DNA from: Haliclystus octoradiatus
Taxonomy: Eukaryota > Cnidaria > Staurozoa > Stauromedusae > Haliclystidae
Assembly (NCBI GenBank): GCA_916610825.1
Contig: OU744450.1
Location: forward strand, 4,953,030 to 5,017,029
Reading direction: 5' to 3'
DNA: 64,000 nucleotides
Shown: in pieces, positions 3,773 through 56,257 of the stretch
Numbering within the stretch: position 1 is the stretch's first letter
Layout of the letters: each line of letters begins with the position of its first letter
Program-made: the position numbers and the translations under genes
The notes under the pieces: model-generated
Told to the model about the DNA's origin: nothing
The model's input: the letters and a program-made list of their open reading frames with translations, nothing else
The model's database searches: none

Positions 3773-5548
3773 TTAAGATATTTCCACAAACATTTCAAAT
3801 GTTGTCTTTCCAGAATTGTTTAATTCTGATCTATTATAGTAGTCTTCATCATACCAAAATGAATACTGTTGGTTTTTATCCAATTGAAAACAATCACGAG
3901 TGGATATAAACGTTGTATTAATGCCATCACACTCATATTCAGAAAAGTCTTCTTTGTCAGCAATGATTTCACCACGAATGTCTTTCACTAACATCATTTT
4001 GTTTGCGCGAGGACGTTTTAAATAACATCCAAACGGCATTGGTGGCACAGACCCACATGTCACTCCGCCGCAAATGTGATTCAATCGTATTCTGTAGCAT
4101 CCAGTTCGTAAGATGAAATAAAAACTACCCGGCTTGTCATCCTTTGCTTCAACATCAATCGAATTTAGAGCTGCATTGATGTATTCTGAAATGAAAGTTG
4201 TATTTACATACATAACATAACGAATATAGAGTGTTGAGTTGAGAATGATATTGAAGGCACTGGAAAAATCACTGTACTAGCACAATGTTATCAAAATGAA
4301 GTAAGTAACCTAGCATAATCAAACACTCCTGCCAAAAACAACTACAGCAACAACTGCAACGGCAACAACAATGCTTTGGCAACAGTAACACCAATAACAC
4401 CATACAAAAAATAACGGCGGAATCAAAACAAAAACTTTCGACAACATAGCAGAAGCAGCAATAACAACAGCAATGGGAAATAGATAATATCACAAGATGA
4501 ATTGTGCAGTTTGGGGAAAACAGAAAGTAAAGATTCAACCTTGTTTCAAATTTCGCGAGTGCCTTCACATATATCACATACCCAACAATAGAGTCCACTC
4601 ATGAGTAATTAAAAATCAAAAATTTTTCTTAACTTGTTGTACTAAGTGACTTGATAACTTTGCTAGTTTTCTTTCGATAATCGGTAAGTATTTTTTGAGA
4701 AATAAGCAGTTCAAAAAATGAGAATTTCCAATCTTAAAAAACGGAGAATGAAAATTAAGTTACATCATACTGTAAAAATTTCTATCACGACGTGTTGAGC
4801 GCGATACGTTCGCCACAACAATCGAGCATCGAGCATTCGTCCATCCAGCAACTTGATTTCCGAATATTTCGTTCTTACAAACCTAAAATTATTACTAACC
4901 TTATTTTCGTTTTTTTTTTTTTTTAAAATGTACTTACGAATGGTTAATTGATAATTGTAGTGATATTATCGAGCTCACTACTTGTGAAATTTTTACAGTA
5001 TGACGTCACTTTACTTTCATTCTCCATTATTCAAGATTTTAAAATCTCACTTTTTGAAATGGTTATTTCTCAAAAAATATTTACCCGTTTATCGCAAAAA
5101 CTTGGCAAAGTAATCAAGTCACTTAGTACAACAAGTAAGGGTAAAAATCTTGATTTTCGATTTTTTATGAGTCGACTCTATTATACTTACTTTTTTCGAC
5201 ATAGTTTGAATATTCTTTCACGACTAGAATACCATCCTCGTTGAATTCTTCATTTGCTTTGGTTTTAAACAGCTGACATGTAACATTTGTAATGCTTCCA
5301 CCAACAACATTCATAGATAACAATTGAGATTTAGCGGAGAATATCATCGTACATCTTCCCCTCGTTGTGTTAGAATAGATTTCCAATGGTTGCGCCGTGT
5401 AAAACATGCCAATTTCAGTTTACAAGTTTTGCCCATATGTCGTACGCCTTGACATAGTTTGGCAATCTCCCATACAAGCTGCCACAAAATGAAGCAAGAG
5501 AAAGCAAACTGCATACTTTAAAATGATGCATTTTAATAGCGGCGTCAT
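3773..5548 (-). pseudogene. two-exon gene for an unrecognised secreted Cys-containing protein, with an in-frame stop
   Basis: Exon 1 is 5191-5548 and starts MTPLLKCIILKYAVCFLLLH, a clear signal peptide. It ends at a donor reading AAAAAA then GTAAGT. Exon 2 is 3773-4185 after the acceptor TTTCATTTCAG. The phases agree (one base plus two). Without the stop the product would be about 255 residues, with several Cys and N-glycosylation sequons (NTT, NRS), so it is probably extracellular. A TAA at 5420-5422 is codon 43. The frame continues coding-like on both sides, for example FYTAQPLEIYSNTTRGRC. It could be a pseudogene, a null allele, a sequence error, or a wrong start with a true start at the Met at 5407. 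The compact beta-rich look is compatible with a CUB-like domain, but I do not recognise the family. The intron holds a MITE. Confidence 0.6.
4582..5184. mobile_element. MITE in the intron of the secreted-protein gene
   Basis: Long imperfect inverted ends share AGAGTCSACTCAT then AAAAATC. Farther in, TTTTTGAGAAATAA on the left faces TTATTTCTCAAAAAA on the right, and ACTAAGTGACTTGAT faces ATCAAGTCACTTAGT. The right end stops only six bases from the exon 1 splice donor. Similar end sequences (GAGTCGACCCTA) occur near 43900. Confidence 0.7.
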
Positions 5549-13869: not shown

Positions 13870-14855
13870 CAATCACCATTCAAAAAAGCTTCAAGCTTAC
13901 CCTGTTTGTCGATAAATGAAAAATAAAGATAAGGTAGAACCTGACTCACTCCGGAAATGATCCATTAATATACTTACTAACATATCAAAATCGTCATAGT
14001 AAAAAGTAAGTCATGTGGGCAAGTCAAACTCACACCTAATGCACTTTTCTAAAAAGGCATAATAATGCTCTGCTCACCCTATATATGTTAGAACGAATCT
14101 CATTTTTTTCCCGATTGTTTGCAAATCTCCCCAATGTTGAAAGGAGCAGGAAACAAACATCTTCGGGAAATCAACGGCTTAAATTTAAAGCAAACAACAT
14201 CTTAGTATTTGATTAACCCTAGATTTTCTCAATCAGGCAACATTTTTTACAAAACTATGGTATATTTTATTTTAATCAAAATTATTATTAACAAAATTAT
14301 TGTCATATTCAATTTAAAACGTTTTGTTTACATCAATAGACCTAGCAGATTTCTGGAATAAAGATATTAATATGAATAATCAAAAAATCTGTCTGGTTTT
14401 CAAAACCACTAACAAAAAAGCATGGGACTTTTGAAGTAAATCTGCATAGAAATCATTAATTAAACAGACAATCATGAAACAAAAATACTTGGGCTAATAG
14501 ATTATAACGCTTATCTATCCACAATAGCGGGACATTGGAGACATTTCATATATACATTAGAAAATAAACATTATAGGATGACTCGTAAACTCTAATGTAG
14601 CCTCAATTCGACAGAATAGTCATCAGCGGTTAGTTGCAGAGCCATCTATTTACAAGAGTCGGGACACTATTTCATGTGCCGCTCTCAGCTCCAATGTGGA
14701 TAGATGCCAGTCATTTGATTTTATGAATGAAGCCACTATCTAGGCTAGTTACCATAGTTACTGTTGTCACTGATATAAATATCATATTGTAAATATTCTC
14801 CATGATGTAACTTTACCCTCAAGGGGCAAACACTTTTTATGTATATATATATCTT
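13870..14855. other. AT-rich non-coding stretch
   Basis: No gene recognised. A short ACTATC-containing area near 14740 is not assignable. Confidence 0.4.
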
Positions 14856-14860
14856 AATTA

Positions 14861-15015
14861 ATAATAATGAAATGAAGTCAAAGACTAAACAGACTAAATT
14901 TTTGCGAGAAACTTTAAGTAACAGTAAAAGAATGTTTAGTCTTTGACTTCATTTCATTATTATTATTCACCGCTCTGTCAAATGACATTGAGCACTATCT
15001 CAACTGCTATCAGAT
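14861..15015 (+). mobile_element. foldback repeat with GCTCTG...TTGAGCACTAT block, copy 1
   Basis: Two arms (14861-14892 and 14932-14968) are inverse copies around AAATGAAGTCAAAGACTAAA. The loop contains GAGAAACTTTAAGTAACAG, a decayed form of the hammerhead-like core. The conserved block GCTCTGTCAAATGACATTGA then GCACTAT follows at 14972-14999. Confidence 0.75.
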
Positions 15016-16025
15016 AACATTATTTTATTATATATCTTAATTATTAATAAAAAACATTCACTCGATAATGGTTGAAGTTAATCAGTCGAAACGTTGTGCA
15101 AACTTAGTTGTGTTGTTATTTTGTACCAAGATTATCACCAAGAAGATTCTGATAAAGACGCCACTTTCATTTCGTAAAACCCAGGCTCGCGAAATTTTAA
15201 CCAAGCCCGCGAAAATAATATCAGGAATTCGAAGTTTTTATGTTCGAAAGCAAATGCCTCGTTTTCAATGGAAAGAAAATGGCAATTTTCGAGCCTCAGA
15301 ACTTACGTGTCCCAACTCTTATAAATAGACGGTTCTTGTTATACGCATTGATCGAACGCTGACAAGCACAGAGCGCTGAATCAGAAACCTACAATAGTTA
15401 TTTAACCACGCTGATTTGAGGGTCATTCTATAAAGAGCTTAGTTAAATCCCTTTCTCTGAATTTTCTTTGCCGGGAAAATCAATACTTTTTCATAAAGGA
15501 TTACCTTGAATGTAATCCCTCAACTCTTATGTGGGTTTAATTTCAATTGATGCCGATTCGAGCTCAATAAATAGCCACTAGAATATTTCTTGTAAATTTT
15601 CAGCAGCTGCAATATGCTAAGTGCACCGCAATTCAGTTGGTTTTTATTGTTAAAAGGCTTGATGTAGCCTTCAAAAAAGATTCAATACTCAAGTGGTTGT
15701 GGAAAACAAACATTTCTTTATTCTACTATTTATTCAAATTTTAGTCAAATGATACAAAATATGGTGATATTTTGAGGTCAATAAATTGATCCTCAATAAA
15801 TAAAATTCTTATTATTAAATCTATGGATTAATATAGATGTAGGCTAGAAGTGGAGCCAATTTATAATGAAAACATAGCACAGGTTGTATAGGAGTTGCTG
15901 AGAGATCAACATAATGAAGTATAAAGATATATATTATACGTACTATTCTTTTATTCAAGATACAAGAAATCTCTTATTTAAAGCAATTGTTTTACAAATT
16001 GAGTAAAATTATATATAGTGAGACA
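15016..16025. other. AT-rich non-coding stretch with a CGAAACGTTG motif
   Basis: AATCAGTCGAAACGTTGTGC at about 15079 resembles the 3' part of Penelope-type hammerhead motifs but lacks a clear CTGATGA. No gene was found. Confidence 0.35.
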
Positions 16026-16027
16026 CA

Positions 16028-16165
16028 AGGATGGTGACTGAGTCAAAGAAAACACATTTTTAATTTAGACAGAAATTAGAAATGTGTTTTCTTTGACTCA
16101 GTCACCATCCTTATGTATTACAGCTCTGCCAATGTGTAATCGGTATTGAGCACTATCACATCTGA
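16028..16165 (+). mobile_element. foldback repeat with conserved block, copy 2
   Basis: Arms around AAGGATGGTGACTGAGTCAA and its inverse enclose a short loop. The block GCTCTGCCAATG...TATTGAGCACTATC follows at 16123-16157. The arm sequence differs from copy 1 apart from GTCAAAGA. Confidence 0.72.
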
Positions 16166-16975
16166 CGATAGATAAATCTATCTTTATTATTATATACAGT
16201 GAGACATAATTACAAATGTATGAGGCAAAATATCGATAAAAGTGCTTAATACTAAGTACAGGGTAATAGAAAAGTTAACTCATAGGTTTTATTATTATTT
16301 GCGCCCAATTTAAGGCAAACATTTATCCATTTTCTTGGTGCAATATTATATGTTTAGTATAGTAAATTATAGTGCATTTACATTTAAATATATAAGTATG
16401 TATATTGTATTCGTATTCATACCATATTATGAATAGATAAATACAAATAAATTAGAAGTATGCAAATAAAATCTAATGTAAATGTACAAATAACATAATT
16501 CAAAGGTTACCACTCACAAGTTTAATCCGTTACTCTAGGTTTCGAGTAAGAATTTCTTCAAACGATTTTTTCTTCTTTTTTTTTAAAGAAATTTATTGAT
16601 TGTGTGGGGCAATCGAATAGAATAGAATAGAAATAGTTTATTTAAAGACATATAAACAACTATGATACATGATTTTTGCTTTTTGTTCTATTTGATTACA
16701 TGTATATGTGTTATATAAGGCATTATTGTTAAGCAGTCGTTTCTTGACGGTTTATTCATAATGCTTGCTCAAAATAATTATGTATGAATAAATCATCAAA
16801 AGAGCGTTCTTGCACGAAACTCAGAGCAATTGAACGAACTAAACTCATAATTTTTCAGTCATCCTTTCCATACAATGATATATAATTCTTAAATATTTAA
16901 GATTTCAATTTAACTTTCTGTTTAAATTCGCCAGGAGGAAATGTTTGATCTTGCAAGAAAATTTTTCTTGATTCA
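16166..16975. other. AT-rich non-coding stretch
   Basis: A fragment TTGCACGAAACTCAGAGCAA near 16812 resembles the GAAACT part of the hammerhead-like family. No gene was found. Confidence 0.35.
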
Positions 16976-17160: not shown

Positions 17161-17304
17161 TTACAGTCACATTACAATATCAGGGGGTACTTTGCAGCTT
17201 ACGTGGGGGGCGAAAATTGTAAAATGTCGACATAATATATATATGGGTATATAAATAAAGGAATAAATATGAAAATATATTTATTATTTGTCTTTACTGA
17301 ATGT

Positions 17305-17332
17305 GATAGTGCTCAATGCCATACAGCAGAGT
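17305..17332 (-). mobile_element. conserved GCTCTG...TTGAGCACTAT block, copy 3
   Basis: On the minus strand it reads CTCTGCTGTATGGCATTGAG then CACTATCAC. It lies about 40 bases downstream, on the same strand, of the hammerhead-like core at 17371-17410. Confidence 0.7.
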
Positions 17333-17370
17333 GTGTAATATAGTTAAAATAGTCAAAAATTAGATATTCA

Positions 17371-17410
17371 TTTTACTACTTAAACTTTCACAACTATAAG
17401 CGATCATCAG
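17371..17410 (-). ncRNA. hammerhead-like core, minus-strand copy
   Basis: On the minus strand it reads CTGATGATCGCTTATAGTTG then TGAAAGTTTAAGTAG. The CTGATGA and GAAA cores are present, but the base after GAAA is G rather than C, so stem III is weakened. A transcribed ribozyme is not shown. Confidence 0.35.
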
Positions 17411-17461
17411 GCAATTTATTAAAGGGGTATATATAGAAATTATTATATTAACATTCGTATT

Positions 17462-22600: not shown

Positions 22601-22683
22601 AAATATACACATAACACGATCTGATAAAAATAATTATTAATTCGAAAGACTTGTGAATATATATCATCGTTTCAGAAAGAAAA

Positions 22684-23775
22684 ATGTCGAATTACATATT
22701 TAATGGTAATATATCAGCCAATGATACCTTACAACCAACAACATCAAATGCTACTGCAAGAGATGCAGAAAGTCAATTGGTTACTACATTGTTGATATCA
22801 ACATATACATTAATATTCGTATTAGGTGTTGGTGGCAATTCTTTAGTTTTGCATTTCTATTGGCAAAAGAAACGCCGTGCATTATTTGATCTCTATGTTA
22901 TTCATTTAGCATTAGCAGATCTTTTCTCATCGTTTACCACGCCTATATTCTTTATACATCAAGAATTAACAACCAGATCTAGTAATCATTTATCAACTAC
23001 CGTATGTATTCTGACTAATTCTATTGCACCAATTTCGGTTAATGTATCTTCCTGGATATTAACAAGTATTGCTCATGAAAGACATCGTGGAATTGTTCAA
23101 CCGTTTAAAATGCGTTTTACGCGTGGAAGAATCCATTTACAAGTTGGTATTATCTGGTTGTTAACCTTAGCACTAATTACACCATATATTTTAGCATTAG
23201 ATAGAGAAGCTGGAAGTTGTGCTGTTCAATGGTCCAATTATCATCTTGAATTTGTTTACAATATCTTCATATTGATATTACAAAGTATTCTGCCAATGTT
23301 ATCAATGACCTATTGGTTTGTGAGAATTGCAACTGTGCTAAACGGTGCAGAACGCAAACAATTGTTTAATCCAACGCAACGATCTCAACCACCAGGAACG
23401 GCGTCTAAAAGAGGAAAACGCTTAACAAGAATTTTGCTTGTCGCTGTTGTTGTTTTTACAATTTGTTCTTTGCCGTATAATATATTTTATGTCGTTGCAT
23501 TGTATTTAGTATATTACAATTCTTATTCACCTGAACTTACAAATGAATTACTCTCTGTCAATCCGTGGTTATCCGCATTGACTGTGACAAGCTGTATTAC
23601 AAACGCTTTTGTCTACGGCGGAATGCATGCCGAGTTTCGACAATTTTTACGCGACCGTTTCTCAACGTTGTCGCTACGACGTCGAGATTCATCTGTGACG
23701 ACTACATCTATTGATCAAAATTTGCATAGCACTGCTTTATCTTCAAAGCAAAATCCACAAGAATCACAACTGTAA
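22684..23775 (+). CDS. class A (rhodopsin-family) G-protein-coupled receptor, intronless, probable peptide-type
   Basis: 363 residues with seven hydrophobic segments. The N-terminus (1-30) has three N-glycosylation sequons (NIS, NDT, NAT). TM1 holds GGN at 50-52 and TM2 has LALAD at 75-79. Cys108 at the top of TM3 can pair with Cys179 in the second extracellular loop. The TM3 end is HERHR (131-135) in place of the usual DRY. TM6 has CSLP (261-264) in place of CWxP. TM7 has NAFVY (307-311) in place of NPxxY. The tail is rich in Arg and Ser. It should act at the plasma membrane through a G protein; the ligand is unknown. A TTTCAG sits seven bases before AAAATG, so an upstream cis- or trans-splice acceptor is possible. 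The closest relative in the window is the broken copy at 38292-39377. Confidence 0.93.
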   Translation: MSNYIFNGNISANDTLQPTTSNATARDAESQLVTTLLISTYTLIFVLGVGGNSLVLHFYWQKKRRALFDLYVIHLALADLFSSFTTPIFFIHQELTTRSSNHLSTTVCILTNSIAPISVNVSSWILTSIAHERHRGIVQPFKMRFTRGRIHLQVGIIWLLTLALITPYILALDREAGSCAVQWSNYHLEFVYNIFILILQSILPMLSMTYWFVRIATVLNGAERKQLFNPTQRSQPPGTASKRGKRLTRILLVAVVVFTICSLPYNIFYVVALYLVYYNSYSPELTNELLSVNPWLSALTVTSCITNAFVYGGMHAEFRQFLRDRFSTLSLRRRDSSVTTTSIDQNLHSTALSSKQNPQESQL

Positions 23776-23779
23776 ATAA

Positions 23780-24555
23780 AGATTATTATCTCAATAAAAA
23801 CATAGAAAAAAACAAATACAAAATTCCACTGCAACTATTATTTAAATTGGAACCAATTAAATGGTATAGGACAAATATAGATGCATGGCATATATATCTT
23901 GAATACAAGTTAAATTTTTACAATAACGTGTGTTAGTGATATAGATTTATTAATGGAAAATGTTATATGATTAATAATTAATGCTTTTAGATTTTCAATA
24001 AGATGTGGTACGTAGATATAGGAACTTAGATTATTATATACTTATACCTACATAGATATATGTTATTATATGAGAACATAAAATTATATACATATAAATA
24101 ATTACTGGTTACTGACTAAAGCTATATTCTGAATTCTGCATATCACATATCAAGTCCCTTCTTTTTCTTTCATATGATTTCAAGCATTGTTGGGCCAGGT
24201 AAAATTATTATAACATCATCGAGCTTATATGTTAAAATTCATCATTTCTTCATGCCGCAAAAGTTGTTCAATTATTCATATGATTTATCACTAATTCATC
24301 ATGTTTTTATTCTTTTATAATTGATTCATTGTTAAATTGTTGTTCAGATGTAATCCATGTATTCAGATGATTTTTATGTCGACGATCTTTTTATTAATTT
24401 TGTTGATAAAATAATACTAAAAAGAGCACATAGAGATTTGTATTGCATAACATCAACAGTATAAAACAGACATTCAATTTTGAGTTTAAAACAAGACCAA
24501 TTTGAAGACAATACATAAATATCTATATATTTGTAAAACGTTGTCTTACTGATTG
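23780..24555. other. AT-rich 3' flank of the GPCR
   Basis: AATAAA occurs at 23794, soon after the stop codon, and could serve polyadenylation. No other feature was recognised. Confidence 0.45.
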
Positions 24556-24561
24556 AACATA

Positions 24562-24715
24562 GGGTTCAATGCAAAATATAGCAGAGCTTAAAATAATAAT
24601 AGTCAGAGAATCAGACAGTCATGTTTGCTACTTGAAGTGAAACTCGGCGTGAAACTTCAAGCAGCAAACATGACTGTCTGATTCTCTGATTATTATTAAA
24701 TATCTATATAACGTT
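24562..24715 (-). mobile_element. foldback repeat with conserved block, copy 4
   Basis: Arms around GTCAGAGAATCAGACAGTCA and its inverse (about 24600-24650 and 24652-24700) have a very small loop. They contain GTGAAACTTCAAG in both orientations. The block lies at 24562-24588 on the minus strand as GCTCTGCTATATTTTGCATT then GA. Confidence 0.65.
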
Positions 24716-24738: not shown

Positions 24739-24835
24739 GAGTGCTCGATGCGGATACGCAGAGCAGTATGAATAAAAACCGTCTATAAGCTCTATCGCGT
24801 GAAACTCTGAGTAACGGAGACAACGTATAGTCTTT
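24739..24835. mobile_element. conserved block copy 5 plus hammerhead-like GAAACT segment
   Basis: The block is on the minus strand (24739-24766; GCTCTGCGTATCCGCATCGA then GCAC). ATCGCGTGAAACTCTGAGTA then ACGGAGAC follows on the plus strand at 24793-24822. The CTGATGA half is not recognisable here. Confidence 0.55.
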
Positions 24836-24839
24836 GACT

Positions 24840-25300
24840 TTATTTCTAAATATATACCTAGGTCATGGATTTTTCTGTTCAGAGTTGCTATACACTTATT
24901 AACCACGATATTAAGAATTCAAAAAGGAAATAAATTTGCTGCTTGAAATACATGCATGCACGTTCTATTACAGTGTATCTCAAGCTCATCATTAGGAAGC
25001 AAAATTAAATTCATAACCAAACCTTTACCTTAATCTGTTAACTCAATATCTTTATATACACAGCTATTACTATTTACTGTATTGATCTCAATAAAATAGA
25101 TTAAAACAGCTTTGTCGATAAGAATATATATAATATTTTATCCCGTTATTGCAATCAATTTAATCATTGACAGTCGACATCATTTTAATGTAAAATATTA
25201 TCTATCCAATAAAATCTTCATCCATGTTGTACTTTTCGTAATGTATTCATGTTGATTACAAATCCATCAAAGAAAAGTTTAATTTTATTGTTAAATAGGT
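24840..25300. other. AT-rich non-coding stretch
   Basis: Nothing supported. Confidence 0.4.
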
Positions 25301-25660: not shown

Positions 25661-25734
25661 GAGGGATATTTCTTATAGTATGATTAATTAAAAAGAGCAA
25701 AAATAGATCGAGAACAAGAACGATGCAAAGTACT

Positions 25735-25815
25735 TTTCGTAACTCAAAGTTTCACGCTTCAAATGAGTTACCATCTGATGATCGCTAAAAGCGTGAAACT
25801 CTGAGTTACGAAAAA
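25735..25815 (+). ncRNA. hammerhead-like core within a foldback, best copy
   Basis: CTGATGATCGCTAAAAGCGT then GAAACTCTGAGTTACG (25775-25810). It has a CTGATGA core, a CGCT/AGCG stem II with AAA loop, GAAAC, and a 3-bp stem III (ACT/AGT) with triloop CTG, then a GTT site. Positions 10.1/11.1 would be a U-U mismatch and no stem I abuts the core. An inverse copy of the right half (TTTTCGTAACTC, TTTCACGC) lies at 25737-25760, giving a larger foldback. Catalytic activity is inferred, not shown. Confidence 0.45.
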
Positions 25816-25967
25816 GGCCTAGCCTTAATCTTGTTTCCAATTATATGATACCCTTAAAAATATTGAATGCAGAATTTGATTTTTGACGAAACAACAAAAG
25901 AAATTGTCTTTCTTGACATTCTTGTTTTAATGGTTTGCATAGAAATACATAATTAAATCAAAGATTA

Positions 25968-26139
25968 GACGTTGTCTCCGTTAGTCAGAGCTTCACGCGA
26001 TAGCGGATATCAGATAGATACCAGCGTTTTATTCCTGACGTCTGACGATCGCTGTCGCACGAAACTCTGAGCAACGGAGATAGCCTCTTATCATTAACTT
26101 AGCTTTATATTGCTCTGACGTGCACAAGCATCGAGCACT
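25968..26139 (+). mobile_element. foldback with hammerhead-like core and conserved block, copy 6
   Basis: The left arm has GTCTCCGTTAGTCAGAGC (25976 onward). The right arm has CTGACGATCGCTGTCGCACG then AAACTCTGAGCAACGGAGA (26042-26080). The block GCTCTGACGTGCACAAGCAT then CGAGCACTT follows at 26112-26139. This is the clearest case of core and block on one strand in one unit. Confidence 0.6.
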
Positions 26140-30600: not shown

Positions 30601-32325
30601 TGACACCAATCAAATGTTTTTCACGAGATAACTAACATCGCCAAGAGCCAGAGGACAAAGGTTGCGAGAGTGAAGATCGTACTGAGACTTTGCTTTTGCC
30701 TTCAAAGTGAGTGACTTTTTATCTGCTTCTTCAAGTAGAGCTTTGATGTCCACAGTGAATTTAGCTGGATTGATTGGTAATCTAGTACGCACAGGCTTAC
30801 AAAACAAACGTTAATCAGGGCTCAAGCCATCATTGCGTGGAGTGTTGCGATACTCCAGTAATACATTATAAAATTCAGAGGTATGAAGCTTGCAGTTGGT
30901 GGTTGTATTGATCACAATAGACTTCATTACCTTGACATTGGCTTCTGCGTGACTGTTGGCAATGTGGTGATAAGGAGAGGATGGATCGTGATGGACCCCC
31001 TACTATTGACAAAATGATTTGAATTTATGACTGCTAAATTGAGGGCCATCATCAGATGCGAGACGGACAGGTACACCCATTGTGTATAGCCAGGCCAAGA
31101 ACACTTGGACGACGTCATCGGTATCGGTACCACGACCACAATTGACAACCATTAGCCAACAACTATACTTATTAATAACTAGTAAATAATAATAACTAGG
31201 AAGTCAATACTAGAACGTTGGAACAAGTCAGCAGAAAAACACTCACCAGGACGGGATGGTGGTAGATGTTGTAGTAGTGGTCCTTTACCCAATGAAGGTA
31301 ACCGTTCTGCGCAAGCTGAACATTTACGGACCAAAGTGACAATATCGTTGGTAATGCTAGGCCAGAAAACACATTGACGGGCACGAGCAAGGGTGCGGTC
31401 ACGCCCCAGGTGAGCAGCATGAAGGTCAGCAAGGATGCCAGGACTTAGTGCGATTGGGATCATCATACGATCTGTGAGCAATACAATGTCATCACCCAGA
31501 AGTAAAAGATTATGTCGAACAGACCAATATGGATGGAGGCCGTCATCTAGGTTGGAATTGTCCGAAGGAAAGCCGCACCTTAATTAATTGAGAGTGAAGC
31601 TTGAGGTAGACTTGATCCACTTTAGCTTCAGTACGGAGATGAGTCATATGAACATCTTCAACAGAGGATGAGGTGATGGTTGCGATGGCTGAGAAATTTG
31701 ATGATTGATGTTGTTCAATATCATCTTCAGGATCAGCTGGTGATACCGGAAAGCGAGAAAATACATAGACCACAGTGTGCTTGATTCCAGCATGCCAACA
31801 GCAGTGAGTTGGTAGCTTGATAACTTTTCTTTTAGACGAATCAGACGATTGCTTGGGATGATGTCGCTGAGTGCCTTAGCGTTGATAATAGAAATTAGCG
31901 GTTTGTGATCGACCACTAACTCAAAAGTTGTACCACGGAGGAATAGATGACATTTATGAACAGCCCAGACCACATCACAAAGTACAATTTCAGTCGAAGA
32001 GTAGCCACTTTCAGCGTCTGTGACGTATCGAGACCCACATTGGAGAAGTTTCCAAGAGCCAATAGGTTGTTCACACCAAAGAGCATAGCCAAGTCCTTTT
32101 GACTGAGCAGCATCTGTTTCAAGGCGTAGATTTGCCTGATGATCGAATGCAGACAGGATACGAGGACTTGTCAGGACAGAGATGAGTTTCTCAAAGGCTT
32201 GTTGATGTGCGCCTTCCCAGACAAAATTCTGCTTTGTACTCAAGAGTGCTCTTAGTGGTTGTGAGATCTCAGCTATATCTGGACTGAACTACGAGTGCCA
32301 GGATCAGGAAACTTTTGAAGAGCGT

Positions 32326-32697
32326 CTACCAGGTTTGGAGTGACAGTGTAGCCAGATGAAAGACAGAAGGTTGGGTCAGGAACATCTTCTTTGGATTGAG
32401 TGTGATGCCATGTGCTGAACAGAGGGTAAGAACTTCACGGACACGTGCCAGATGGGTTGCCTGATCACGGTCGTAGATGACAACGTCTTCAACAATTTTG
32501 CGAAGGTTGGTGATGACAGCCAGAGTTTCGTCACCACGTCGGTTGTGTTCATCGCCTGCACTATTCAAACCCATAGCATTTCGTCGAAAACGATAACAAC
32601 CCCAAGGAGTAATAAAGGTAGTCAAGTGCCGTCTTTCTGGGGAGAGATCCACTTTCCAGTACCTATGGCGAGCATTTAGGGTAGTGAAATATTTCAT
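32326..32697 (-). pseudogene. gypsy reverse transcriptase fragment
   Basis: Contains YFTTLNARHRYWKVDLSPER, FITPWGCYRFRRNAMGL and VVIYDRDQATHLARVREVL, the central RT blocks of a Ty3/gypsy element. The catalytic box normally has two Asp (for example VDDVLIYD); here it reads EDVVIYD, so one Asp appears replaced by Glu. It is interrupted by frame changes on both sides. Confidence 0.85.
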
Positions 32698-33978
32698 ACC
32701 GAGAGGTATTTGTGAGATTTCCTCTCGTGGGACCTTTGCTGGGTACCCGGGACGTTTGACAAACGGTTCCGGGCATTCGAATCGACATTTATTCTAGGTT
32801 CATTGGAATTCTTCTTAGGGACTACGACCATGAGGTGGATCCATGAAGGGGACTCTCCGAGGGGGACCTTCTCAATGACACCTTTACTGACCATTGAGGA
32901 TAATAACTGGATTTGGACTGACTCTTGCCAGTGGAAGGGGACGGTGTAGGCCTTGTACCTCTTGACAGGGATGGCATTTGGCTCCAACTCAATAGACATT
33001 GGAGGACGAGATATAGGGGAGAGGGGTTCGTCTAGATTGAAAACCGTAGATTGAAACTCACAGATAAGATCAGGGATCTCAGAGGAAGGGTTAGGGTTGA
33101 CGTCAGGACTTTCCATCGATACAGTGTTCTGGGGAGTCAGTGGCAGGACTGCGAGAAACGGCTGAGACATGATGGGGCCAACTAAGAGGGAGAATTCCAA
33201 GGGTTATACAACCATGTCTGCTTAAGAGTGGTGCATTCGACTTCTCAACTACATAGACATTGCAGGCATAACTATGGTCCCCATGGGATAGTTCATGGGA
33301 CATGTACCGATTATGGGCAATTTGCACTTGTCTGTCTTGAACAATTCTTCTGAAGGAGGGTATAAGTTGAGTTCTAAATCAGGGTCTAGGTGGGCTAGAG
33401 TGAAGCGGCTGATAACATCACAGGCTGCACCACTATCGGGTAACCAATTCAATGGGGAGGTACTCTTATAGGTGGTGGTTGGTAATGAGATAGTCTCAGA
33501 AGACATTGCTATATTTCCGAGGTAAATATGATTCTGTGACTTCGATTGTTGCACAGCAGCTTGTGCTTTTTTGCGACAAACCACTTGATAGTGTCCAACT
33601 AAACCACAAAAGGAACACTGGGCTTCCTTAGTGGGACATTTAGGGTGAGGGTGGGTGTTTTTCCCACAGAAATTACATTTTCCACTTGGCTTAGACTGTT
33701 GTTGTGGTTGTGAAGTCTTACTAGAATGTTTACGTTTGGATTTCCCAGAACTGACAGCTCGGACTGTGGAAGGTTTGGGTTGGGAGAGTTGCTCTGGGTG
33801 CTTTTGCTAGACTCTTGAGCAGTGCAAATATCTAGTGTCTTCTGGAGGGTGAGAGAAGTAAGATTATCTATCGAATTGGCGTAAAATTACTTCTGACTCA
33901 GAAATACTTGATGCGGTGGCAGGCATGCACCTACAATTTGAATAAATGCCAGTGTATTATGAAGATCGAAGAGCAAAA

Positions 33979-37799: not shown

Positions 37800-38285
37800 A
37801 ACAGAAAGGATGGAAAATCAAAATACATTTCATAACATTTATGTATTTCCAATTTTAGATTTCTATCTTTTTATATTATTATCTGTTAGAAAATATGATG
37901 GCAGAACAATGACGAAACGTTGCAAAATTACTTGCTTGCTTTTCTATCTAACTTATCTAATTCAAATAGCTCAAGCAAAAGTTTGTCATGTTTGATTTGA
38001 ATATCTTTTACACAACTGAAAGTTTACAGCATGATTTCTATTAACCAATCAGTACTAAGAATACAAATCCCTTTATTATACTAGCTACATAAATAACCCA
38101 GTTTTCAGGTTATATTCGATAAAAATATATCAATAAATGTAGAATGCGCAGATGCTTGTCCGTCATTGTATTGCAGCTATCGCAGTGAGCAGAAGTTTAA
38201 TTTATTAGTCAATTTATTTGTACAATTTACTTGATAAATTCAATATAACCAACATTAGTGATCGAATTACATATTATTCTACAAT
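37800..38285. other. 5' flank of the second GPCR
   Basis: It contains ATGACGAAACGTTGCAAAAT near 37908, a Penelope-like motif fragment. No promoter was assigned. Confidence 0.35.
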
Positions 38286-38291
38286 GCAAAA

Positions 38292-39377
38292 ATGTTTTTG
38301 ATAATTTATACATCGTATAATACATCAGTGAATAACACACAGAATGATGATAATAATTCTAACACTGATCAATTACTTCCAATCATATTAATAACAACAT
38401 ATATATTGTTATTCGTTTTGGGTGTTGGTGGCAACTCAATCGTGCTTCATTTCTATTGGCAAAAACAATGCCGTTCATTATTTGATCTATATATTATTCA
38501 TCTAGCTTTATCAGATATATTGTCAGTATTTATAAGACCTATTTTCTTTATTTATAACCAGATAACTGAAAATTCAAGTCATATACTTTCAGCACCAATT
38601 TGTATTTTTTGTAATTCAATTGGACCTATTTCTGTGAATGTTTCATCATGGATATTAACAAGTATAGCACATGAAAGATATCGCGGAATTGTTCAACCAT
38701 TTAAAGTGCGTTATACCGAAAAAAGGATTCATATACATGTTGTTATCATATGGGTTTCATCTGTTATACTATTTTCACCCTATATTAATGCACTTGATAC
38801 AAGTACAGGGGCTTGTTTTTTGAATTGGAACAAACAATATGACTTTGAATTTGGATATAATGTCATTATACTATTACTTTAAAGTCTTCTACCAATGTTG
38901 GCAATGGCATATTGGTTTTTCAAAATAACAAATGTATTGAACGGTAATGATCGTAGACAGTTATTTAACGCAACCCAGACATCACAAAATTGTAACAATT
39001 TATCCAAAAGAGGAAAAAGACTAACATCAATATTACTCATCAATGTTATCATCTTCATAATTTGTTCTTTACCGTATAATATATTCTATGTTGTTGCTCT
39101 GTATTTAACGTATTATGTCCCTGTATCTAGTTGGATTGGATTTGCTCCTGTGCTACTTGATGTCAGTAGATGGTTCCCTGCCTTGAATCTTTCAAGTTGT
39201 ATTACAAATGCTTTTGTATACGGTGGAATGCATGCTGAATTTCGACAATATTTACGTGATTGTTTCTCAAAGTTGTCCTCACGACGTCGTGTCAAGGTTA
39301 GGGCAACATTGACCAATCAGAATACTCGATGTACAATCATGAATTCAAAACAAAAGTATGAAGACTCTAAACTTTAA
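38292..39377 (+). pseudogene. class A GPCR paralogue of 22684-23775 with one in-frame TAA
   Basis: The frame spans 361 codons. TAA at 38880-38882 (codon 197) falls at the end of TM5, where the intact paralogue has CAA (Gln200). One C-to-T change explains it, and no frameshift is present. The rest is well kept: GVGGNS in TM1, LALSD in TM2, a TM3 Cys and an ECL2 Cys, HERYRG after TM3, CSLPYN in TM6, TNAFVYGGMHAEFR in TM7. N-glycosylation sequons sit in the N-terminus. Truncation would remove TM6 and TM7 and should abolish signalling. It could be a recent pseudogene, a polymorphic null allele or a sequencing error. Re-initiation at the Met at 38895 would give only the TM5-TM7 part and is unlikely to function. 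Confidence 0.9.
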
Positions 39378-40816: not shown

Positions 40817-40851
40817 TAGTGCTCAATCTCAATGACAGCATTTGACAGAGC
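40817..40851 (-). mobile_element. conserved block, copy 7
   Basis: The minus strand reads GCTCTGTCAAATGCTGTCAT then TGAGATTGAGCACTAT, preceded by GTCTTTGATTCCTTCTG as in copy 9. Confidence 0.65.
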
Positions 40852-42963: not shown

Positions 42964-45900
42964 CTAAAGAAAGATACAATAACAAAAATATGAGTAAAAG
43001 ATATAATATCACGGTTGACACCAGAGCAGGAGGCCAACGATACATCCCCTTGTTTCAGTTTCCAGCCCCTTGCAACCAAGGTGCCAGATGCAAAAAGAAT
43101 TTTGAAAATTGGTTGCAAAAAGAATTTAAACGTTTGTGTTTTTAGATGATCTATTAAATCTTGACAAAAGGGCTGGGACTAGTTCAGGTGCACAATTTTT
43201 CAAGCTTTTTTACTTCTTGGGATTGGCTCTAACTTAGTGCTGATTGATTTTATTTCATTTTCAGCTTCGTTATATATCAATTGAAAAGGTCACTTTTTGG
43301 GTAAAAGATTTGACGACTATGCTTCAAATACTTTTATTACTTTGTCATGTTTTTTCGGTGAATAGATACATATTTTTGAGAACTAAGCTGAACTATTTGA
43401 AAAAATGTTTCAAATCTTGAAAATGGAGATTCAAAGTTAAAGGAGCAAAAATGACCGGCAGGCGCTACGCACTTAGGATCACGTGCATGTTTATTGTTTA
43501 TAACACAATGTTCATTGTTGACATGATTTTATTACAAATTAGGCTTGCGTATAACAATAGTTTCAAAGCGAGACGGTTGAATTACGCTAAGCATAAATTC
43601 AAATTGATCTCGCAGCGGTCGCCGGTCAATTTTGCCCCTTTAAGTGACGTCATAGTGCCTAATTTCTGATCATGACGAGTGAGCATGATATTATCAAGAC
43701 AGCTATCGATCATTCGTTCATGACAACGAAAAGTTCGAACATTGTGTCGTTACGGACGAACAATCAGTAGCTTCCATGGTCATATCGAGCTCCCTCGTTG
43801 TGAGCAGAAATCAGAACAAAACTTGACTAAAAATCAAGACATTTAGTACAATGAGTGAAGGAAAAAATGTTGAGATTTAATTGTTATGATTGAGTCGACC
43901 CTATTACTAAAGTGTGAAATAACTGATCAAGCCATTAGTCATTATTAGCATTAATTCCTTAATGAAATTCTTGAAAAGAAAGTATGTAATGTATTGCATT
44001 TTCATAGAGGACTTAAAATACATAAATCAAACACCACAATAATAAACATATAATAAGCAGAGAAATCAGGTTACCTCATGTAGAATTGCCCTTGTTGACA
44101 AGAACGGTGTACTCAATTCAGCAAGAAAAAAGCAAGCAACAATATAGTCTCCAGTTTTATTGCGTAGCATCTAAAAGTTAGAGATAATGCTATTGTTAGG
44201 TACAGTTGAATCTTCTTAATAGGGAGGTTTAGATTTAGTACCGGTACCGGTTCCAGTTCATGTTTAGTCAACAAGAAGACTTGGTTATACCTGTACTCGT
44301 TCTTTCAAAACAAGACGTTTAGATTCAATAACGTAAAACCTCCATTTCTGTTTTCCAGGTAAAAACAAAATTTCAGACAATTTGTTCAGGATTCATTTTG
44401 ATTCTATGTATAAATTTTATAGCGACAATAAAATTTCATTCAAAAAAGCTAAAGTAAAAGCAAAACAAAGCAAAACAACGAAATCAAAACATGTACTCCG
44501 TGGTTCATGTTTCGCGCCGAAAGGTGTTCCAAAACGAGGAGGTCAGTACAGGTTTCAGAGCATAGGGGCTTTCCCCAATGCGCAGAAGTGATGCGCAACG
44601 AGAAAGCTGTACTAGTAGCTGTACCTGTACTAAATCTATATCTCCCTAATTACCCTCTTGAAGCATGGTCCAATCAAATATCATACCTCAAGTTTCTAGA
44701 TAAATGTTTGAGTAATTTTAATAACATGATATATCAAAGTTTTTTTTAGTGATAAGTTGAATAATCTGTAAAGTATTATATCCAGTATTTTGCCTTTTTA
44801 TTCTAAATTTTCCTTGCCTTTTACAAACCAGGTAACTGATTATGAATTAGACAACTGGTTATCAACAAAACAATCAGAGATTTCAATACCACCTGATTTG
44901 TTAACCTTTTCGTCTTCATACATTACATGTGGGAGGATAATTATTATATACCATAGCTGCCCTATTGTTGCTAAACAAAACTAAGCATTTAATTATAACT
45001 GGATTCTGTTCTGTAAATAATCCTTGTTTGTCTAGCATTTAAACATATTTATGTGCACATTCTCTATTGTCTATTGTCCTGTTTATTGTTGTCCTATTGT
45101 TCTGTTGTTTGTGTGTTCAATTAACCGAAAATTAACAGGTTATCATTAAAGGTTAATCAGTGCTTAAAAATCAGAGAAAAGTATTGTTAATTCATGGGTT
45201 CAAAATTAAAATTTGACAATAAGCAAAGTGGTATTAGACTACGTACAAGAGATGTTGCGAAGGAAACAGAAAGTTGAAACCAGCTGTGTGTGGTCAATAG
45301 GGATATATTAAGGAGGGTGGGACAACTGAGAGATATGAGATGTTGAGTTAGTAGAACTGTAACCACACATCAGGAATTAAGAGCAAGAGGAGAATTAAAA
45401 ATAACGCCTGCTTGTTTCTGAATATTAGCTTGTACAAGAATGAGGGTTTACAAAAGTTATCTTTGCCCATCTTGTCACACAACCAATAGAAAATCAAATA
45501 ATTACAATAACTGAAGTATTTTCATAATAATTATTGTTTTATAATAAATCATGATCAGTCATGGTGATGTAATTGTAGCATATATTTAACTATGCAAGGT
45601 CATGTGCACTGGTAGCTCAGTGGCAGAGTGACAGCACAATGTGGGGGAGGCCAGGGTTTGATTCCTTATTGGTGCACACGCAGAAGCTCTATGTTTTTGC
45701 CTGACTGTTGGTCAGGGTCCGATAAAATGTTCAGCCTTTTGGAATCCTAGAGGCATTTCAACATTTTTTTCAGAATTTTGTTGTTGAGGTTTGACCAAAA
45801 AATCATAAAACTATCAATTTTCTTTTGAATTTGCTCTAGCCTTCCGGATCTAGGATTGCAGGATTCCTACTTTTGTCGAACCCTGGTGATGATGAATTAT

Positions 45901-47582: not shown

Positions 47583-47612
47583 GCTCTGCTACTCACTTGC
47601 ATTGAGCACTAT
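47583..47612 (+). mobile_element. conserved block, copy 8
   Basis: GCTCTGCTACTCACTTGCAT then TGAGCACTATT. Upstream TTCTTGACGTTCTCATTATT resembles the GTCTTTGA...TTATTATT lead-in of other copies. Confidence 0.65.
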
Positions 47613-51287: not shown

Positions 51288-54200
51288 CTGCAATGGAGAA
51301 TATATTGGTAGTTGTATTACACTACAGATAGGGGTCGCCTACCAAAGGCACCCATCCAACTCAACTATTTCTAGGGGAGTATCTCTTTTCTCTGAGAGCA
51401 ATGACTTTGAACGCTCTTTATTGATCTCAGCCGCGACACTGCAGATCAATCTCAACATATTTCATGGCAGATATGCTGTTGATGCGAAGGGGTGCGCCAC
51501 AGCTACTCACAATGCAATTCCCACTTCCTTCAATTAATGTTGCGGAAATTTCTTTCATTTACCTCTCATATTCATTGTATGACAAATAAATCATATCATA
51601 TTACAGTGGATTATTATTAGCCTGTTATTAGTTATAAAATTATCAATAAATACCTCATATCTAAATTCTAAAACAATACAATAATAAATAATAAACAATG
51701 AATGATATGAATTACTTTAAATCATATTGAAAATCTTACCTTCTACAGTTCCTTTGAAGACAACAATGGCGTTAATTTTGGGGTTGTCATAATAGCTCTA
51801 GAAATGAAATAATTTAGATTGTTCATACGATTGCTCAGAGTGCGGCCTTGGTATAGTGGCTAGACCGTTGGACCATGGCCCGCAGGGTCTCGGGTTCAAT
51901 CCCTGTCCGGAGCACTATAGGTTGGCATCAGGAAGGGCATCCGGCTATTAAACGCACACAAGCTTCAAAGTACTAACAAATTAACCAACCACCCCGGTGA
52001 AAGAAAGCTGCAAGCTTACGTGGTTTGAGGATAAATGATAAATCCAAAAAAAAAAAATCATACAGAATATATAAATGTAAGTCTGGCCTACAGTTGTTCT
52101 ACACAGTGGTGCAAACCTAGTCTACAGTATTACCCCTGCAAAAACCAGTCCAGGAGTTAGTGAACAGTTCATGAACTTTCACGGGTAGTTCATGAACAGT
52201 CCACGAACAGTACATTACATGAATAGTTGGGGGCATTTAACGTTCATGAACTGTTCAAGAACTAGCTGAGAACTGTTTTTCGCAATGGGTAATTATCAGA
52301 GAACAAAAAATATGCATATATAGGCATACTAGATAAAATAAGAATCTAAGGAGTATCAGTATAATATTCAATGGTAGAAATTAGGCTTGCAAGCTCAATT
52401 TGGTAAGAAGAAGCTGAAAATCTGATAAAAGTTTGATCAAGTCTCATGAATGAGAGGCGATAAAAAGTAATCAAATAAGCTATACAAACGCTCTGAGCAG
52501 GTCACCCTATATATAGCTAGCCTAACCCAACATGTAAACAACCGCTAGTTAACTCAGCTTATCGTTCAACTAATATTTACCTTCAAAAATTCCACATAAA
52601 GAAGACTTGAAAATGGCGATGATTCCCCTTTGACAACTAAATTACCCCGCTTGATTTGAAAGGGAATATATTCATCATGACCAACCGCAAAACCTACGTT
52701 ATCATAGATGTCAATATCTTTGATAACAATATGTTGATGATTTAATCTCACATCAAACACCTGAATAACAACAACAACAACAACAACAACAAATCACTGA
52801 TTAAAACAAATAATATAAATATATATATCTACAAATATAATATGTCAATAAAAATTTAAAAAATATTGGCAGTTGAACATACAGATGATGATGGTCTGAT
52901 GATCGTTTAACAATGTGAAACTTCAAGTAACAGTAGGCCTAAAGATTATCTTTATATAGGCCTAATATGTGAGTTTGGTTAATATGCGTAATATTTTTTA
53001 CTGAATAAATGACGATGATAATCATGACGATGTGTAGGTGTGGTAGGTATAGGCAGGTCAAGAAAAGTCCAGAAACTTGGAGACCTGGTTTGCGGAAGGC
53101 CAGCAATATACAGAAGGGATAACGCAAAATGTAGGATATAAAGCTAAAACAATTAGAAAATATGAAAAATAAAATTTTGATTTTACGTTTTTACGTCAGT
53201 AAAATTACTCAAACATTTATCTAAAACTTGCGGTTTGCGGAAGGTAAAACATTTTGTTGGACCCTGTGTGTAGGAAATCTACAATAAATATAAACAAATT
53301 TCAGGTTCAAGTACGACTTATTGCTTCAACGGCAAATGATCCACCTTTTTTGTTTAAACAAAATAGAACAGAGCAGAATCAATGCGTTCTCATGCCTTTA
53401 TGCATTATGTATTTCTCTTATAAGATTTATAATAGCGTAGGCTACTCTGTATCTGACAATTTGTTTTTATCAACAAATTTTGGAAGAGGGAACTTTTTGC
53501 AAAATGTTTTTAGAACGTTTTTAGAGATGATTTATAAAACACGTTAATTAACCAATCAGATTCTAGAAGTATATTTGACACAAGGGCCTATATTTTATTT
53601 AGTCTTTTTGTACTAATCATAGGCTAGCCTACTGAATAATAAAAATAGAAGATGGCTCATCACGCTGGAGATAGATCTAGTTTCTCCAATTTCTCAACAT
53701 TTAATAACTGTGACAAAAATGAATGCATGTTCTAAGAAACTCATAAAACCTACCCCATCTTCAGTATAGCCTAGGCCTACAAAGTATAAAAGATTCATGT
53801 TCATAGGGCTTTACCCAGGGGCGCCCAAGCAAAAAGAGAGCGACAGAAGAGGCAACGATAAAATGCACTTTTTCAAAACATTTCTCTGAATGGCTCTTGT
53901 ACCTAGCCTGCATTGTAAATGCAGGGGGTCAGCTGCCACCTCTACTCCGGTGCCACTGACTTCATTAGAAGACAGGTAGACCTACTCCTAAAAATGAACA
54001 TATGGCGGCAAGACTATTAATAGTAACTATTGGTAGGCCTCATAAATTTCAATTATCGTACTTGTCAGTGGACCTACGCAGTACAGTAGCCCAGTAACAA
54101 TGACTCTCTAGCTGTGACAATACGTAGATGCAAAAACCATTATTTAACATGAATGGGAGGGCATTGTTTTGAATAACCAAGGATATGACTGAGCTGTCAA

Positions 54201-55639: not shown

Positions 55640-56215
55640 TATTCTGTAATTAATTAATGTGTTCTAGCTTCCTTTCAACAAAGAAAATAAGTTTTTCAAT
55701 GTTTGAATGTAGATTTGATTCAATTGATGTGAAATTAATTTGATAATGAAGGAAATTATCAAGATATCTTGATTAATCGTACATTACATCATTTCAATGT
55801 GTGCTGTGTCTTATAATGTTCTCATTCACAGCTCACTCTCCTTAATCCTTATTGTATTTACCTGTTATATATATTTTATATGAGGAATAAATGAAATAGT
55901 TATTGTAAACGACTAACACTGAGCTGAGTATCTCAAACGTTATATATTCATGTCATGGAATTTATTTTTAGAGTGTGGTTTTTTTTATTTTTATTGCAGC
56001 AGTATTATGATATGATATGATATGATATGATATATTTTGTCAATGGAATTTGACGGGCAAATAAAGGGAGACTTGATTAAATTAAAGCCTCCATTTACAT
56101 ACAGCCGGTAATAAACACGAAAATATATAAGTATTGACCATACAATAATTAGAGGAGTCATAGACGTCACATTCATAATTGTTACTAATAGTTTCATGTG
56201 AAGTCTTTGAATCCT
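55640..56215. other. AT-rich non-coding stretch
   Basis: Contains five ATGAT units at about 56010-56032. TAGTTACAATTATGAA-type sequence near 56175 includes an inverse GAAACTATTAGTAAC, another variant of the GAAACT-NNN-AGTAAC motif. Confidence 0.4.
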
Positions 56216-56231
56216 TTTATTATTATATTTA

Positions 56232-56257
56232 GCTCTGTCAAATGGCATCGAGCATTA
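56232..56257 (+). mobile_element. conserved block, copy 9
   Basis: GCTCTGTCAAATGGCATCGA then GCATT. Lead-in GTCTTTGAATCCTTTTATTA as in copy 7. Confidence 0.7.

Follow-up and report, generated by a model that had tools for sequence, protein, structure and literature searches.

A hammerhead-ribozyme-like core recurs within a 64,000-nt stretch of the Haliclystus octoradiatus genome (contig OU744450.1; this whole stretch is called the window here), which raises the question of what kind of element carries it. The sequence-only reading of this DNA had proposed a minimal hammerhead of the kind known from Penelope-like elements (PLEs) or retrozymes. With a probability of about 0.88, we consider the motif to be a minimal type I hammerhead located in the pseudo-LTR of an endonuclease-bearing PLE. 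The kind is already known, and the family is probably a Penelope-like hammerhead carrier with intact copies elsewhere in the genome, and the window itself contains roughly twelve copies or remnants, short and old.

Hammerhead cores and fold-back copies in the window

Four hammerhead cores were found at the positions first noted, beginning at 25775, 26042 and 52896 on the plus strand and spanning 17410-17377 on the minus strand. GAAACT fragments were likewise located at 24801 and 14907, and the copy at 56180 lies on the minus strand. A strict descriptor (CTGANGA, stem II of at least 3 bp, GAA, stem III closed by A-U, and H17) matched the cores at 25775 and 52896 and also picked up an unrelated site at 9612; across 60 dinucleotide shuffles of the window the mean was 0.2 matches and the maximum 1. 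This window-only count is just modestly above chance; the case is settled by homology and by the genome. The Rfam match suggested earlier as a check was not obtained: no hammerhead was reported over the whole window at the gathering score, or at E <= 10 over the whole window and three shorter stretches, and the strongest miRNA-like Rfam matches were palindromic arms. A covariance-model match, also suggested, was obtained with a purpose-built model, R1, made from 44 genome rows after leaving out 3 window rows and 11 decayed-looking rows. A box C/D snoRNA reading (UGAUGA/CUGA) was rejected, since the other copies do not retain CUGA.

The best-preserved hammerhead in the window (25767..25815, plus strand; R1 57.7 bits, E 6e-15) has its core from 25775 and a predicted cut after 25807. 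Its stems II and III are family-like, and two of its four stem I pairs are broken. The fold-back element around this core (25713..25835, plus strand) has arms at 25713-25759 and 25789-25835 that are 79% complementary; its left arm contains the 3' half of a hammerhead in reverse (R1 25785-25733, minus strand, E 2e-4), and no 3' hairpin was found. A second, decayed hammerhead (26034..26081, plus strand; R1 E 4e-6) has its core from 26042, a C in place of U16.1 and three pairs marked as broken, and is held by a fold-back element at 25944..26136 (plus strand) whose 3' end is the hairpin 26112-26136. An approximate target duplication for this copy was dropped, its sides being identical at 10/16 positions. 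The copy at 52888..52937 (plus strand; R1 E 5e-9) has one broken stem I pair, and neither a clear left arm nor a 3' hairpin was found there. On the minus strand, a hammerhead at 17418-17369 (R1 E 2e-8) with one broken stem III pair and a 3' hairpin at 17332-17311 make up the copy 17245..17433, which has a 9-bp direct repeat at each end, picked by eye. A degraded hammerhead copy was also matched on the minus strand at 16523..16569 (R1 16569-16523, E 5e-4).

Other copies are recognized by their arms or by their 3' hairpin. The palindromic copy 14846..15050 (plus strand) has arms at 14859-14891 and 14933-14965, the 3' half of a hammerhead, a hairpin at 14972-14993 and direct repeats at 14846-14867 and 15029-15050 with one mismatch; it is 88% identical over 116 nt to the genomic copy L144 and is matched weakly by R1 (E 0.04). 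A palindromic copy without a hammerhead (16008..16206, plus strand) has its hairpin at 16123-16151 and direct repeats at 16008-16025 and 16189-16206, again with one mismatch. The palindromic copy 24516..24710 (minus strand) has arms 24594-24638 and 24654-24698 at 96%, a degraded hairpin-like end at 24587-24566 and the direct repeat TATATAGATATTTA at each end. Next to it, the copy 24743..24840 (minus strand) has its hairpin at 24764-24743 and a left arm, in plus-strand reading, at 24775-24821, in which GAAACT...AGTA is kept and CTGATGA is lost (R1 E 1e-6). The remaining features are a palindromic copy at 56140..56253 (plus strand; hairpin 56232-56253), the 3' hairpin of a copy without a detectable left arm (47583..47607, plus strand), and the 3' hairpin of another, degraded copy (40821..40851, minus strand), which a profile built without it matched at E 6e-6.

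In a fold-back test, 6/10 window copies (14972, 16123, 26112, 56232, 24587 and 25713) were as self-complementary as the top ~1% of 1500 random stretches, and those at 47583, 24764, 17332 and 52896 did not rise above the random stretches. The left arm of the fold-back copies repeats part of the right arm in reverse complement, and in hairpin-bearing copies the right arm is followed by a second conserved hairpin, GCTCTG-N-YGAGCACT. This pattern, which was drawn from these copies, has 8 exact matches in the window and 0 in each of 100 shuffles. Flanking direct repeats of 14-22 bp were present in 3/8 window copies searched, two of them with one mismatch, in a search made without a control; the 9-bp repeat above makes a fourth flanked copy. 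All four full cores carry broken pairs, scored as mismatches by R1, and the window ribozymes are therefore probably inactive, as decayed parts of old inserts. For the core at 25775, the ribozyme fold has +2.1 kcal/mol vs. an optimum of −4.2 in a nearest-neighbour model, and the ribozymes of palindromic copies would be masked within a long duplex.

Several other features were also noted in the window. An inverted repeat at 4623-5145 has 160 nt arms that are 81% complementary. Broken retroelement frames, presumably gypsy-like, occupy 31179-33806 on the minus strand, where G+C is above the rest of the window. Two similar-looking frames at 22657-23775 and 38262-39377 are ones we take to be GPCR-like; a stop codon at 38880-38882 splits the latter with the frame unchanged. 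A tRNA-like stretch at 45606-45676 (27.5 bits vs. an Rfam tRNA cut-off of 29) is perhaps a SINE head.

Predicted ribozyme structure across the genome

The genome assembly containing the window comprises 262 Mb in 33 contigs. The strict core pattern gave 102+136 matches and the strict hairpin pattern 739+748 exact matches, with 0 in the reversed control of each. When 67 copies were picked by the hairpin alone, 28 had a ribozyme 3' half, and 22 of those 28 had an exact CTGANGA in place; the hairpin lies ~80 nt downstream of the ribozyme. Within the hairpin, the first pair of the inner stem covaries (27/35 distinct loops paired; mean 17.3 and maximum 24 in 1000 shuffles), and inner-stem pairs 2 to 4 did not exceed shuffle maxima. 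R1 also recovered the ribozymes of the loci with open reading frames (ORFs) described below. Core and hairpin searches of viral and prokaryote contigs gave 0, 0, 0, 2 and 21 matches; on 12 of these 23 loci, which are bacterial, the ribozyme model R1 found none at E <= 1. A genome-wide search with RF00163 scored only 73 of 24130 candidates with silent controls, and is uninformative.

For the structural analysis, 170 distinct tolerant matches were reduced to 119 with an exact core, 117 past a stem III filter and 104 distinct copies. A 58-row alignment was made from 62 non-redundant ribozyme matches after four (window:9269, L031:68, L076:1200 and L079:152), which stay among the 104, were dropped by eye as non-family. 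The type I core, C3UGANGA9, G12AA and A15.1-U16.1, is present in the genomic copies. Position 17, which the search pattern left free, is a base other than G in 103/104 copies (A73, T25, C5, G1). The earlier statement that no stem I adjoins the core does not hold for the family: four base pairs abut it and three of them covary. Pairs 1, 3 and 4 are formed in 93, 83 and 90 of 104 copies against maxima of 83, 80 and 79 in 500 shuffles; pair 2 hardly varies and did not exceed shuffles, and a fifth pair had no support. A stem I pattern, CTGANGAN{8,20}GAAACTNNNAGTNACAG, was designed for genome-wide counts of matched and mismatched stem I. In stem II, pairs 2, 3 and 4 exceeded shuffle maxima, the last two narrowly.

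The first stem II pair, 10.1/11.1, is usually G-C in hammerheads, a feature that is common and not strictly defining. The U-U mismatch that the sequence-only reading had held against its own proposal is indeed there, as a trait of the family (84/104 copies; U-A in 10, G-C in 4). Most copies thus lack a Watson-Crick pair here, which counts against the hammerhead reading, and some subfamilies (L113, L057, L135) have G10.1-C11.1.

Taken over the three helices of the 58 non-redundant copies, 80.6% of cells are paired, and at most 48.0% when partners are slid by 1-3 columns. Changes on both sides affect 62 cells, and at most 17 in the slid controls. None of 500 shuffles, which ignore the relatedness of copies, reached the paired fraction, the double changes or the covariation score; for 2/5 covariation measures (pairs changed on both sides, further pair types) the shuffles were not exceeded. 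The covariation proposed as a check was thus seen in stems I and II, but stem III has no compensatory change: it is 95.4% paired and nearly fixed in sequence with no double changes, and the match pattern itself favours it. RNAalifold predicted no pairs on the alignment, which still counts against the structure and may be explained by short stems held through core contacts. In the L144 copy, the ribozyme fold is not optimal (−4.2 vs. −8.0 kcal/mol, nearest-neighbour model). The covariation of stems I and II together with the rule at H17 supports a type I hammerhead with predicted self-cleavage, and with it the minimal hammerhead originally proposed. A different repeated hammerhead-like string, CTGATGAAGGCTAATGGCCAGAAACATGTACT, was seen at L076:1196-1253 (plus strand) and L123:160-217 (minus strand), with three matches and GCAG/CTGC around it; it is perhaps a second hammerhead family.

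The source element and its proposed mode of insertion

The motif lies in both direct repeats around an intact ORF at three of the four loci examined. L144 has two 320-bp direct repeats (319 positions identical), each with a ribozyme and a hairpin, flanking an ORF of 713 aa. This layout recurs in L145 and L147: each has its ORF (716 and 714 aa, respectively) between two ribozymes with their two hairpins, and the repeats, 350 and 540 bp long in the alignment, extend into the ends of the ORF. The spacing is 2523, 2481 and 2549 nt for L144, L145 and L147, respectively. L146 has an intact ORF with a 3' ribozyme, and no direct repeat was found within the stretch examined.

By eye, the ORF contains FYP, MGS, YRDD and SNHPP, which we take to be motifs of a PLE reverse transcriptase, and LIYNA...NYIG, presumably of a GIY-YIG nuclease. 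Searches of Pfam, NCBIfam and the PDB gave no credible match, and a search of viral contigs gave no relative. Structure prediction was poor with two models (mean pLDDT 33.3 and 34.4); when the predictions were compared with PDB folds, nothing matched at E <= 0.001. Residues 591-600 and 641-650 were the only ones to average above 70 pLDDT (75 and 79); the strand-strand-helix-helix-strand order around them fits, in our assumption, a GIY-YIG domain. Because library matches were absent and the structure models poor, we infer the PLE naming from motifs and layout. With a 113-residue nuclease query, all 150 scored of 2724 candidates matched, and among these 150, 22 lay in open frames of at least 700 codons and several were in head-to-head order.

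Insertion structure was read from 79 copies that have a hairpin and sufficient flanking sequence; in 32 of these the left arm matches the right arm of the same copy. This arm ends at most 10 nt before the hairpin in 27/32 copies and 21 to 52 nt before it in 5/32, and reaches over the hairpin in 0/32; the left boundary differs from copy to copy, from −88 to −330. An earlier left-arm table, contaminated by neighbouring arms, was superseded: six of its best matches extended as far as the hairpin or beyond it (+15 to +63), and four of these were the two sides of the opposed copies L031 and L045, which match each other. Ribozyme halves within 180 nt of each other are head-to-head in 43 cases (41 distinct, at least two of which are not family pairs by eye) and in the opposite order in 8 (7 distinct). 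With a score of 11 or more, non-repetitive flanking repeats were seen in 6/27 copies vs. 24/702 cross pairs; many other flanks are AT repeats and so say nothing on target duplication. The copies clearly display insertion of these elements as mirror-image pairs, with the PLE-type traits of head-to-head inserts, a one-sided tail and target duplication.

These features bear on readings in which no retroelement ribozyme is involved. Inverted arms could be put down to chance or to a fold-back DNA transposon (MITE), a reading that is already contradicted by the controls of 0, the asymmetric ends, the duplications of 9-22 bp and the source copies with an ORF. It is very improbable that the core is a conserved promoter, protein-binding or hairpin-arm sequence with an accidental likeness to a hammerhead: this would suit the missing Rfam match, the U-U pair and the weak predicted fold, but stems I and II covary inside one arm, H17 follows its rule and some subfamilies have G10.1-C11.1. 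A non-autonomous retrozyme or SINE-like family, whose short rod-like RNAs would carry a hammerhead per strand, be circularised and spread in trans, is unlikely, and of the two kinds first proposed we favour it less. In its favour are target duplications and the short palindromic copies, whose two arms each have a hammerhead. Against it stand the intact ORFs flanked by the very repeats, the variable left boundary and the palindromic rod, which is so stable (−165 kcal/mol, L108) that it would hide the ribozyme; moreover, among 47 same-strand neighbours (100-450 nt apart, loosely matched), 0 were near-identical head-to-tail, the best ungapped identity being 0.64 in a comparison that was ungapped only. 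The Penelope alternative is supported by the location of the motif in repeats flanking intact ORFs with PLE-like motifs.

In the PLE reading, read-through RNA from tandem copies would be cut after the NUH triplet to give unit-length RNA of about 2.5 kb, and reverse transcription would start at the hairpin region. The GIY-YIG enzyme would open AT-rich target DNA and both strands would be extended, each on an RNA template, which would yield head-to-head inserts 5'-truncated on both sides. We tentatively suggest, at somewhat less than even odds, that two RNA templates are used, each primed on one of the cut target strands, and that their start sites are fixed and differ, one lying on each side of the GCTCTG hairpin; every insert would then be an inverted pair, able to mix subfamilies. 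Alternatively, a single template might give the palindromes through self-priming or copy-back, a possibility that we also rate a little below an even chance. It was proposed for the rotifer Penelope, in the part of PMC3846280 available, and agrees with the likeness of arms within a copy (median identity 0.88 within pairs vs. 0.66 between copies) and with an automatic screen of 79 copies, in which 7 candidates matched another subfamily better and none was a clear chimera. The asymmetric 3' hairpin, however, fits two start sites, and L084, picked by eye and absent from the list of that screen, joins two subfamilies. Its left arm is like L119/L101 and its right arm belongs to another subfamily (arm identity 0.66), with ATCACATATTTA at both ends as a 12-bp duplication read by eye; the inner part is common to both subfamilies. 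Mixed arms inside one 12-bp duplication hint at two RNA templates in this single clear case. The arms of the window pair 25742-25806 are also 0.66 alike, and this pair was not counted as a chimera because it is old and without a clear duplication. We infer that the data fit two start sites flanking the GCTCTG hairpin, and two templates in one clear copy.

The mode of insertion of PLEs and the role of their hammerheads are still unsettled. This genome offers very many copies of a family in which some ORFs are still intact, and these copies give direct access to start sites, to the lengths of truncation and to the mixing of templates. It also holds a putative ribozyme that was missed by the Rfam search used. 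Two-template PLE chimeras were not described in the portions of the open-licence literature searched.

Comparison with known systems

Hammerheads in the pseudo-LTRs of PLEs were reportedly described by Cervera and de la Pena in 2014. The Haliclystus motif shares its core and topology with Rfam Hammerhead_1 (RF00163), unlike whose members the window copies gave no match at the thresholds tried. Like the animal non-LTR retrozymes, as far as covered by the portion of PMC7229834 available, it is a type I hammerhead; unlike them, its ribozyme belongs to an ORF-bearing element, and no near-identical short head-to-tail pairs were found among the 47 examined. The same portion describes the axolotl HHR_Amex2, which likewise begins helix II with U-U and cleaves.

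The closest likeness in layout is to PLEs with pseudo-LTR hammerheads (PMC7761336): direct repeats surround one ORF, each with a minimal type I hammerhead, the sites are AT-rich, and extra sequence (tail) is present at one end. Unlike these PLE hammerheads, the Haliclystus family has a regular 3-bp stem III with a variable triloop, U-U as the commonest pair at 10.1/11.1, and a conserved hairpin after the ribozyme with one inner pair covarying beyond shuffles. The protein of the Anolis PLE Poseidon cuts and extends both strands in vitro, starting inside the RNA, and the tail is the stretch between two start sites (PMC11167929). The Anolis hammerhead requires the protein in order to cut, and it is dispensable for insertion in vitro (PMC11167929). 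In Anolis the ribozyme overlaps the ORF start, whereas in Haliclystus it precedes the ORF's first ATG.

The endonuclease-bearing Adineta vaga Penelope, in the available part of PMC3846280, likewise has an inverted, head-to-head pLTR pair and a short target duplication, the inverted pLTR being shorter and a ~31-bp tail standing on one of the two. Compared with what that part describes, Haliclystus differs in having very many copies, those read being mostly short, and in one copy that joins two subfamilies.
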